From positions 868,001-932,000 of the forward strand of contig CP069393.1 of NCBI GenBank assembly GCA_016887505.1: a DNA stretch of 64,000 bases, written 5' to 3'. Shown here piece by piece: positions 44,777 to 48,144 of the stretch. The notes below the pieces were generated by a model. It ran no database searches, was not told the DNA's origin, and was given only the letters and a program-made list of their open reading frames with translations. The first letter of the stretch is position 1, and each line of letters starts with the position of its first letter. Made by a program: the position numbers and the translations under genes. The stretch is from Clostridia bacterium. GTDB lineage: Bacteria > Bacillota > TC1 > UBA5767.

Positions 44777-44814
44777 AAAAAGTGGTGAACAGAATTCTGT
44801 TCACCACTTTTTTT
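44777..44814. terminator. Bidirectional terminator between the EF-G paralogue and the pseudopilin gene
   Basis: A perfect palindrome of about 17 bp per arm centred on GAATTC, flanked by A and T runs so that both strands read into T tracts. It closes the plus-strand EF-G transcript and can serve the minus-strand pseudopilin gene. Confidence 0.92.
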
Positions 44815-44898
44815 AACTCATCTAATTATCACAAAATATGTCTTCCATCAGATTTATTGTAATCAATAAATCATGTATTCCTTTCTACAAAAATACCA

Positions 44899-45774
44899 TC
44901 AGTTTCCTTGCTTAATCCAACTCTCTCCATTCCAAATATACGTTCCAGCACCTTGCGAGGAATACACTTGCTTGAATTCATCCGTATGCTCACCTAATGC
45001 TTCTGTCCCAATATCACTTACTTCTGAACCAATCGTAATTTTATTTAAGTCATTCCCAGCAAACGCCTTTTGCTCTATCTTTTGAAGACTCGATGGAAGT
45101 TTAATCTCGGTCAAATTATTATCCTTAAATGACCACAAATCGATCCTCTCTACCGAATCAGGAATCGTAACACTCGCGATATTATTATCTTGGAAGGCAT
45201 GGGCGTGAATTTGGACAACCTGACTTCCTTCCTGAAAAGATACTGCCACAAGTCCTTTGTCTTTAAAAGCATTTTGCCCGATCATTTTTAAGACAACCCC
45301 ATCTAGTGAATTAGGAATAACGATATCCTTTGAACTCCCAGAATACGTTTGGCTTCCATTCCAAGCACCAAGAAGGCCATTCGATACACTTAACCCGTCC
45401 TCTGAAGAAATAACATAAAATGAATCCGGAAACAGTAAATACCACCTTTCGTCATCAAGCATCCAGGCAAAGGTAGCATCTTTACTTTGTGGTTCTACAA
45501 AGGAACTCAAATAACCATCTTCTACCAATATGTTTATCAATTCTGTGTTGCTTTTGGTTTCATCCTCAAAAGGATCCGATGATTCATTACTAATCCGATA
45601 TATTGGTGTCAGGGTATTTAAAAGCCCAACAGTAGACTGGTCAACAGAGATTTTAGCACGTTCAGTAAATCCAAATAGCCTTGGAACTGTAACGGAAGCT
45701 AGTATGCCCACTATAACGATAACAACAATTAATTCTATCAGTGTAAAGCCCTTATGTTTGCCCATTCTGGTCAT
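44899..45774 (-). CDS. Type IV pilin/pseudopilin fused to BspA-type leucine-rich repeats
   Basis: 291 residues. A 9-residue basic leader MTRMGKHKG precedes the prepilin peptidase site G-FTLIELIVVIVIVGIL, with the invariant E at position 5 of the mature protein. An N-terminal pilin helix (10-40) leads into a pilin-like domain (about 45-150). Four BspA/LRR_5-like repeats follow (about 165-260, IGxxAFxxNxLxxVxIPxSV pattern). A terminal AGTYIWNGESWIK segment is usual in such surface repeat proteins. No pilus ATPase, platform protein or prepilin peptidase is nearby, so it must use machinery encoded elsewhere. A role in adhesion or surface sensing is inference. ATG 45774 has AGGTGG 8 bases upstream. 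Confidence 0.88.
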   Translation of the reverse strand: MTRMGKHKGFTLIELIVVIVIVGILASVTVPRLFGFTERAKISVDQSTVGLLNTLTPIYRISNESSDPFEDETKSNTELINILVEDGYLSSFVEPQSKDATFAWMLDDERWYLLFPDSFYVISSEDGLSVSNGLLGAWNGSQTYSGSSKDIVIPNSLDGVVLKMIGQNAFKDKGLVAVSFQEGSQVVQIHAHAFQDNNIASVTIPDSVERIDLWSFKDNNLTEIKLPSSLQKIEQKAFAGNDLNKITIGSEVSDIGTEALGEHTDEFKQVYSSQGAGTYIWNGESWIKQGN

Positions 45775-45806
45775 AGTATATTCCACCTTTTCCTAGTATC
45801 GTTTAT

Positions 45807-45963
45807 CTGTATTTCCAATACAGTTTGGCTATGGCTACCCTGCGCACTCGGATAACTCTTTATCTGCTAAAATTGATTCAGCCATTTCTATTCAACAGTC
45901 TAACTACCAACGGCTTCGTTAAATCACAACAATGAAGCAAATCACCATAATAGAATAATTATA
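45807..45963 (-). promoter_or_regulatory. Structured leader with candidate -10 upstream of the pseudopilin gene
   Basis: On the minus strand a TATAAT (45958-45963) would start a leader of about 180 bases. It contains hairpins AACG/CGTT (45909-45920), GATAA/TTATC with a 4-base loop (45851-45864) and a perfect 7-bp CTGTATT/AATACAG (45807-45823). A long-range pair, ATGGCT with AGCCAT (45831-45836 and 45880-45885), encloses the second hairpin. The nested pairing suggests a folded regulatory RNA. I could not match it to a known riboswitch class. Confidence 0.4.
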
Positions 45964-46044: not shown

Positions 46045-46086
46045 AAAAAAAATGATACAGCCATGAATGGCGATATCATTTTTTTA
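46045..46086. terminator. Terminator downstream of the SDR gene
   Basis: Arms AATGATA/TATCATT plus an inner GCCAT/ATGGC form an interrupted hairpin flanked by A8 and T7 runs, so it can act on both strands. It lies about 60 bases past the SDR stop. Confidence 0.75.
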
Positions 46087-46971: not shown

Positions 46972-48144
46972 TCACAAACTAGTCAATTCATCCTGATAAA
47001 CCGTCTCAAGCATTTCCATAGCTTCCTTCTCACGCTCATAGATAACATACATACTTTCACTCATTTGACCTAAAATAGTATCTAAATTAACTGCTTCCAG
47101 TTCTTTTTTGGCATCATTCATTACCAAACGAAACTTCTGATTAAAATCAATTGCATCGTCGATATGGATTCCTTTCTTGCCGATATCTGTCAGTCTAGTC
47201 TTCATCAGTTTTCTCAGATTTGCAAGACTGTCGTATTGGTCGCTTAGTGCCAAGTATGAAAACTCAGCCCATAGACCTCCTAATCGAAAATAGTCTTTGC
47301 TGATCTGCTCCAAATGTCTGTTGTTGAGTATCTGTGACGACTCAGACAAGAATTTTGAATATATATATCTATATCCTCCACCATCGCTAAAAATATTAAT
47401 ATTTAGAAAACATTGAATCAGACAATCTAGAAGATAATGCTTGTCTCGATTGCTAAACATAGTAATCCAACCTGTATCAGATTTATTATCAATTAAACTC
47501 TTGGACCATTTTTTTAAAGTTGGAATCGCATAGCTTCTAGAATTAGAGCCCATGTTCTCAACACAGTCCTTGATGCCCGTCCGTATTGCTTTGCCAACAT
47601 CAACCGGCTGCCTGTTATCCAAAACCCAAATTCTATTTTTTAAATTCTTTATGGCCATGCGTGCCATGCTCAGTTGTTCAGGAGTTAAAGAAAATTGAAA
47701 TCCACTGTCGTTTAGAATATAGTTTCCATCTTTTTTAGCTACAACCTGAACCACTCTACCATAGCAACCAGCGCAAATCTGTTTCACTTTTAGATAGTTA
47801 ATATAATAAGCATCAATCCAAATCAAGCAGGGTCCTTGTTTCAAAGCTTCATCCAGCCATAGTTCCGCTTTTGAAGTACTACTCGTTGAAAGAATATCTG
47901 CCTCGATGCCCAACCTTTCTGTCGCTTTATCGATAAACAGGCTCTTATGGTTCCATCCATTTCGAAAGCCAACGGTTAGAACCACATCCGTTTCTCTAGG
48001 ATCACACAAGTTGTAACCGATTCCGATTCCTCCAGAAATGCCAAATATCAAAGGAGCAGTGAGGTGCCCTATCAAATTTCTTTGTTTTAGACATTCCATA
48101 ATTCCCCAGGAAATATTTTCTCTATAATTATTCTGATCGAACAT
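46972..48144 (-). CDS. BtrH N-terminal/DUF4872-type protein
   Basis: 390 residues. The N-terminal part (about 10-170) resembles the BtrH_N papain-like fold: APLIFGISGGIGIGYNL (30-46), then a segment LKQGPCLIWIDAYYINYL and a region ending in NDSGFQ. The rest is helical and looks like DUF4872, with a long C-terminal helix ending in EREKEAMEMLE. BtrH in butirosin synthesis moves an acyl group from a carrier protein to an aminoglycoside. Here no carrier protein or antibiotic genes are nearby. The family cysteine seems to be serine (S12). The role is unknown. The ribosome site AAAGGAGGG is strong. The 182 bases upstream, to the tRNA-Trp gene, hold only that tRNA's terminator. Confidence 0.72.
   Translation of the reverse strand: MFDQNNYRENISWGIMECLKQRNLIGHLTAPLIFGISGGIGIGYNLCDPRETDVVLTVGFRNGWNHKSLFIDKATERLGIEADILSTSSTSKAELWLDEALKQGPCLIWIDAYYINYLKVKQICAGCYGRVVQVVAKKDGNYILNDSGFQFSLTPEQLSMARMAIKNLKNRIWVLDNRQPVDVGKAIRTGIKDCVENMGSNSRSYAIPTLKKWSKSLIDNKSDTGWITMFSNRDKHYLLDCLIQCFLNINIFSDGGGYRYIYSKFLSESSQILNNRHLEQISKDYFRLGGLWAEFSYLALSDQYDSLANLRKLMKTRLTDIGKKGIHIDDAIDFNQKFRLVMNDAKKELEAVNLDTILGQMSESMYVIYEREKEAMEMLETVYQDELTSL

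Follow-up and report, generated by a model that had tools for sequence, protein, structure and literature searches.

The window analysed here, a stretch of 64,000 nucleotides comprising bases 868001-932000 of the single 2,563,013-base contig of a Clostridia bacterium (CP069393.1), contains a gene at positions 44899-45774 of the minus strand whose 291-residue product joins a prepilin leader and helix to a domain of leucine-rich repeats (LRR) of the BspA/LRR_5 type. The protein is probably an accessory modular minor pilin, assembled by a pil machine encoded far away on the same chromosome and offering an LRR binding surface, probably at the pilus tip. The coding sequence begins with ATG at 45774 and is supported by Pfam domains, orthologues and purifying selection. 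Its ribosome-binding site, AAAGGTGG, was recognised from the sequence at 45783-45790; the GTG start candidate at 45786, upstream of the ATG, falls within this site. All parts of the gene given below lie on the minus strand.

The N-terminus carries the class III signal characteristic of modular pilins, scoring 33.8 bits with the Pfam family N_methyl (cut-off 21.2) and 34.6 bits with TIGR02532 of NCBIfam (cut-off 16.3). Judged from the motif (MTRMGKHKG|FTLIE), the leader peptide of residues 1-9 (45748-45774) would be cut between G9 and F10, which places Glu at position 5 of the mature protein. The hydrophobic assembly helix with Glu5 covers about residues 10-36 (45667-45747), is matched by solved pilins in a phmmer search and has a mean Kyte-Doolittle hydropathy of +2.74 over mature residues 1-21. 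A strict prepilin regular expression, applied to the first 60 residues of every stop-to-stop frame in the window with 100 or more amino acids (102 frames), found only the pilin frame. The computed mature protein has 282 residues, a mass of 31.0 kDa and an isoelectric point of 4.40.

Behind the pilin head (about residues 37-147, 45334-45666) follows the extra, non-pilus C-terminal domain of a modular pilin, the BspA/LRR_5 domain of residues 148-260 (44995-45333), which matches Pfam LRR_5 (PF13306) with 73.1 bits against a cut-off of 27.7 (E 2.4e-20). In our partition it consists of a cap (148-170) and about four units (171-194, 195-216, 217-238 and 239-260). The C-terminal tail after the units, residues 261-291 (44902-44994), is given as GAGTYIWNGESW and also as GAGTYIWNGESWIKQ, with the conserved pattern GAGTY..NGESW.KQ; residues G275, A276, G277, T278, Y279, G283, W286, K288 and Q289 are invariant in the three intact orthologues described below. 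A preliminary description of this DNA had proposed the same cleavage site with Glu5, about four BspA/LRR_5 repeats in what are now units 171-260, and an AGTYIWNG-type C-terminal segment, and on all three points it was correct.

Searches of the PDB with the sequence only returned the LRR proteins 4gt6 (1.8e-11), PcpA 4cp6 (1.4e-10) and 4fs7 (3e-9). A model of the LRR part, whose alignment was extended by six LRR rows taken from three related loci, reached a mean predicted local distance difference test (pLDDT) score of 82.6, about 93 over the solenoid core, with the tail at low confidence (block means 47-62). Foldseek matched this model to 6mlx (7.7e-5), 4h09 (1.5e-4) and 4cp6 (3.5e-4), and VIA-align superposed it on 4fs7 (Z 16.0, root-mean-square deviation 3.7, 146 residues aligned), TpLRR (Z 15.8, 3.0, 144) and PcpA (Z 14.4, 2.8, 141), the best row outside bacterial LRR_5 proteins having a Z of 9.4. 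The extra rows contain much LRR_5 consensus sequence and include two that overlap, which biases the model toward that fold; the sequence-only matches are independent of this bias. The C-terminal half was thus confirmed to have an LRR solenoid fold like that of PcpA, TpLRR and the Bacteroides surface LRR proteins, and the non-LRR fold that the preliminary description had named as counter-evidence did not appear.

The genome possesses the machinery needed for such a subunit. A pil operon at about 444-461 kb of the same chromosome, roughly 450 kb from the pilin gene at 913 kb, encodes a PilB homologue (TIGR02538, 616.5 bits, under the cut-off of 675.65) with an MshE-type cyclic di-GMP motif (55.9 over 38), PilT (472.7 over 319.1), a PilC/GspF platform protein (T2SSF, 194 over 25.2), PilM (73 over 27), a GspM/PilO-like protein (28.8 over 27.8) and a small pilin, taken as the major pilin. 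A core pilin is encoded within the pil operon, which is not the case for the LRR pilin. Peptidases of the A24 family were found at 460605, 2522443 and 1998523, so that a genome lacking assembly and peptidase genes, the other outcome named as counter-evidence, was not encountered: pilB, pilT, pilC, pilM and a prepilin peptidase are all there. None of the six genome-wide pilus-ATPase matches and none of the three A24 peptidase matches lies in the window, which upholds the earlier statement that machine genes are absent nearby as far as the ATPase and the peptidase go; the platform family, also included in that statement, was not searched genome-wide. No secretin was found in the genome at E<=0.001, in a search that was positive in 6 of 14 control genomes, and this fits a monoderm.

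Several features of this operon were noted in passing. At one operon end (G000:C1:443720-444406, L020:2721-3407; G000 is the genome studied here) a protein is encoded whose sole domain is A24_N (116.8 bits), and at the other (G000:C1:460254-461030, L065:255-1031) one that has the A24 peptidase domain alone (63.8 bits), so the prepilin peptidase looks, from its domains, to be split into two genes at opposite ends of the operon. The pil operon of the same-genus genome G001 also has an A24_N-only protein (L191:8144-8839, 115.9 bits). Two large prepilins are encoded in the operon, one of 455 residues with a VWA domain (2.8e-10; L020:14781-16148) and one of 1012 residues with Listeria-Bacteroides repeats (8.3e-25; L020:16167-19205); both are likely to be further modular tip subunits. 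Apart from the LRR pilin, a search of the genome at E<=1 turned up a single LRR_5 gene, for a 1283-residue protein (L022:2004-5855) that scores 315 bits with LRR_5 and 192 bits with the Listeria-Bacteroides repeats.

In the mechanism proposed for the LRR pilin, the prepilin would be inserted in the membrane and cut by the prepilin peptidase of the genome, and the mature pilin would be built, probably at the tip or close to it, into the type IV pilus of the PilB/PilC/PilM machine encoded some 450 kb away. The displayed LRR_5 solenoid may then bind a protein or glycan of a surface, a partner cell or a host, and the LRR pilin probably helps the pili of this bacterium to stick to something.

Relatives matching both halves of the protein were identified by a protein search of 61 genomes: in G001 (56% identity, residues 7-289), in G009 (40%, residues 5-243, with one in-frame TAA) and in G004 (36%, residues 7-241). 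A search of ten genomes of the order found the LRR pilin in four, the genome studied here included, with one copy broken, and did not find it in the remaining six; some of these genomes are incomplete. The comparison with G001 gave a non-synonymous proportion (pN) of 0.295 and a synonymous proportion (pS) of 0.769, the latter saturated, and that with G004 a non-synonymous rate (dN) of 0.656 and a synonymous rate (dS) of 2.29. These ratios show the intact copies to be under purifying selection. Head, LRR domain and tail each hold residues invariant among the three intact orthologues, in which the prepilin motif with mature Glu5 is also kept. The number of repeats varies, the G004 protein being short by about one unit. 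In the G009 copy (L058:9659-10459, minus strand) the TAA stands shortly after the helix, and this assembly is 76% complete.

A PilB match above 420 bits was obtained in five of the ten genomes (G000, G001, G004, G006 and G009), four of which have the LRR pilin; none of the other five has it. One of those other five, G003, has a PilB fragment of 298.7 bits, and the PilB match of G009 lies at a contig end.

In the wider phylum the architecture was searched for with a three-row profile, which matched 83 of 398 genomes at 1e-12; a single match across pilin part and LRR domain was obtained in the same four genomes only and the others matched one half, in a search that scored at most six candidates per genome and could miss LRR_5 pilins on other heads. 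A single scan of genome contigs gave one relative, over residues 117-232, and a regular expression run over 184 loci and the window found only members of the LRR-pilin family. A mobile or phage origin was considered and rejected. No match was obtained among 50,697 phage records at E<=1e-5; 23 plasmid records matched, in no case over 80% of the query, and the matches of the 15 records listed start at residue 77 or later. Among viral contigs, the best 80 of 191 relatives all match the pilin part, and further searches gave none and then two LRR loci.

The head was characterised with a profile of the three intact LRR-pilin heads, from which the assembly helix had been removed, and 14 chosen heads were searched. 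Five pilins without LRR scored 27.7-44.4 bits: the tandem pilin of G001, the pilin G001:C1 and three pilins of the distant genome G392. The best of 2800 shuffles scored 10.5 bits and a viral pilin 12.8 bits. Three other pilins of the genome studied here stayed far lower (major pilin 0.3, VWA pilin -0.7, another orphan pilin 4.0), as did the G001 major pilin (1.3) and a G002 pilin (5.9), both under the best shuffle. Since the five relatives had first been noticed with longer queries, this profile checks likeness beyond the helix and is not a blind search. An eight-row head profile used alone (E<=1e-5, 398 genomes) matched six genomes, five of the order and G392; its rows came from four of them (G000, G001, G004 and G392), so that G003 and G009 are additional. 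The head is thus homologous to the heads of other large pilins, and the full-length single-sequence model (pLDDT 48.7) gives no confident picture of a globular pilin fold with a beta-sheet in it. On these profiles the head is best described as a rare family whose likeness to the major pilin of its own genome is not detectable outside the helix and which carries unlike C-terminal modules in relatives.

In G001 the LRR pilin gene is followed by the tandem pilin gene (L057:9100-9918, minus strand), of the same head family with a different, unannotated C-terminal part. A BLAST comparison of seven C-terminal parts related two of the G392 proteins (G392a and G392b, 2.6e-8) and, weakly, G003 and G392b (0.003); the G001 tails matched none convincingly (best 0.02 over 24 residues). 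By eye the tandem pilin of G001 had seemed to end in a chitin-binding-like tail; this impression was abandoned, as Pfam gave nothing and BLAST to a G002 tail was unconvincing. That G002 protein, an orphan pilin from the same genus (L060:1598-2173), is the only one with a CBM_5_12-like tail, of 26.1 bits (cut-off 26.2), and was left out of the head family on the score of its head, below the best shuffle; the best T2SSE match in G002 is only 187 bits. The head of the LRR pilins also occurs in a G003 protein (L225:162-1415, minus strand), where the N-terminal helix in front of it is not of the prepilin kind; Pfam gave no match for this protein.

Unlike modules on one head family support, without proving, an exchangeable carrier. 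It is conceivable, and on balance doubtful, that the head is a universal carrier of exchangeable modules (LRR_5 here, unannotated ones in G001, others in G392) whose genes, in the four genomes with the LRR pilin, stand apart from the pil genes. If it were so, these genes would act as add-on tips that can be removed, allowing a monoderm to direct a fixed pilus at other targets. The gene shows that there are modular pilins encoded outside the pil operon with a head family of their own, and such proteins would be missed by surveys limited to pil operons.

Several observations weigh against assembly by the distant pil machine. PilB is on a different contig from the LRR pilin in three relatives, and by eye no pil genes were seen in the 11-20 kb around the LRR pilin of three relatives, with the exception of the G001 tandem pilin; as the LRR pilin does not stand beside pil genes in any of its four carriers, co-expression with the machine is a supposition. 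The co-occurrence with PilB comes from ten related, non-independent genomes, some incomplete, and in G009 there are in-frame stops in both the PilB match (TAG) and the LRR pilin (TAA), which may be either true nonsense mutations or mistakes of the assembly. The single-sequence model of the whole protein is of poor quality, and Foldseek with it found no PDB match at E<=0.001. Finally, the genome contains further ATPases of the T2SSE family (at 1854113, 2525027 and 2464081) besides the A24 peptidases outside the operon. That the LRR pilin gene lies apart from pil genes in each of its four carriers would also suit a membrane-anchored LRR receptor, in which the prepilin helix, processed or not, is only an anchor and the protein stays in the envelope. 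The G003 relative points in the same direction, since a head behind a non-prepilin helix suggests that it may work outside pili. We consider such a receptor unlikely, as the prepilin motif and mature Glu5 are kept in the three intact LRR orthologues and a strong PilB match is present in the genomes that carry the gene.

The further ATPases and peptidases also raise the question whether the protein is a subunit of another pilus-type system, Tad-like or competence-like, and not of the main type IV pilus. At G000:C1:2522317-2525563 the peptidase of 2522443 adjoins an RcpC/CpaB protein (61.5 bits) and a T2SSE ATPase, which suggests a Tad-like system at this place. Signals of the GFTLIE kind fit assembly of the type IVa, type II secretion or Com type, and only five N_methyl proteins were found in the genome at E<=1, three of them inside the pil operon, so that membership of another system appears decidedly improbable. 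Were the gene a dispensable or decaying accessory that no longer has a function, its apparent absence from six of the ten genomes, the in-frame TAA of G009 and the varying repeat number would be explained; given a gene that is intact and constrained between species, with invariant residues in head, LRR and tail, this reading has very little probability. The accessory modular minor pilin, served by the operon at 444-461 kb, is the reading that we retain.

The pilin plus LRR_5 architecture as such is known. A survey of InterPro for pilins with extra domains described more than 1,200 proteins in 264 architectures, and IPR026906, which is leucine rich repeat 5 (PMC8613185, PMC5998147), is listed there as an extra domain in the 15 most common modular pilin architectures, with no clear function (PMC8179133). 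Its modular type IV pilins of IPR012902 plus IPR026906 share with ours the class III signal, the pilin part and the LRR_5 module. As the architecture is in print, the gene is an added example, a conserved and selected case of a combination described there as frequent and of no clear function. Modular pilins with adhesive modules have been reported, with tip placement in Streptococcus sanguinis by modelling (PMC9934059, PMC10191384). The S. sanguinis minor pilins PilB (vWA) and PilC (lectin) are comparable in that a small pilin of a monoderm bears a large binding module; unlike them, the present protein has an LRR_5 module and its gene lies outside the pil operon.

The preliminary description had called the protein a pseudopilin. 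In the type II secretion sense this label does not hold: the equivalog model of the pseudopilin GspG (TIGR01710) gave 45.2 bits against a cut-off of 88.85, and the likeness to GspG is in the N-terminal helix region, the LRR module being extra here. Modular minor pilin is the better name. BspA/LRR_5 surface proteins are held at the cell surface by anchors of their own. PcpA (4cp6), TpLRR (6mlx) and HupY/LrrG have the LRR_5 fold in common with the pilin, which has a much shorter LRR array and a pilin N-terminus in place of those anchors; the HupY/LrrG model matched with E 2.3e-14 and 52.5 bits against a cut-off of 1250. PcpA is described as an LRR protein involved in adherence (PMC7924319).

The gene is convergent with an EF-G gene and is preceded on the same strand by an SDR gene. 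It is isolated between two bidirectional stem-loop terminators, as had been described before. The one that separates the pilin gene from the EF-G gene (44777-44812, both strands) has a 16-bp stem and a folding energy of -23.7 kcal/mol on the minus strand, with z scores of -7.0 on this and -8.5 on the other strand. The one downstream of the SDR gene and upstream of the pilin gene (46046-46085, both strands) is a stem-loop fold of -16.9 kcal/mol on the minus strand, with z scores of -5.4 and -5.2, respectively. A generic terminator scan reported neither, in our reading because the T-runs are absorbed into the stems as A-T pairs. A sub-threshold Rfam match to CsrC at 44777-44820 (24.2 bits, gathering cut-off 61) is the terminator hairpin only.

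For the 5' leader (45775-45963, minus strand) a TATAAT was noted by eye at 45963-45958; a promoter scan was not above chance (8 found versus 6.6, standard deviation 2.3, in shuffles). The structured leader proposed earlier is not supported and, with it, a riboswitch was rejected: the 216-nt leader fold had a z score of +0.53, with 136 of 200 shuffles equally or more stable, no Rfam match was found inside the leader at E<=1, and the genome holds no further copy, the best other match being 18 bases. In seven related loci, Rfam matches at gathering level were confined to a cobalamin riboswitch and a tRNA, and no LRR pilin follows either of them; by eye no likeness was seen to the stretch upstream of the G001 gene. 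Further upstream in the window, at 46972-48144 of the minus strand, a DUF4872/BtrH_N (butirosin H-like) protein is encoded whose gene overlaps the start of an SDR gene.
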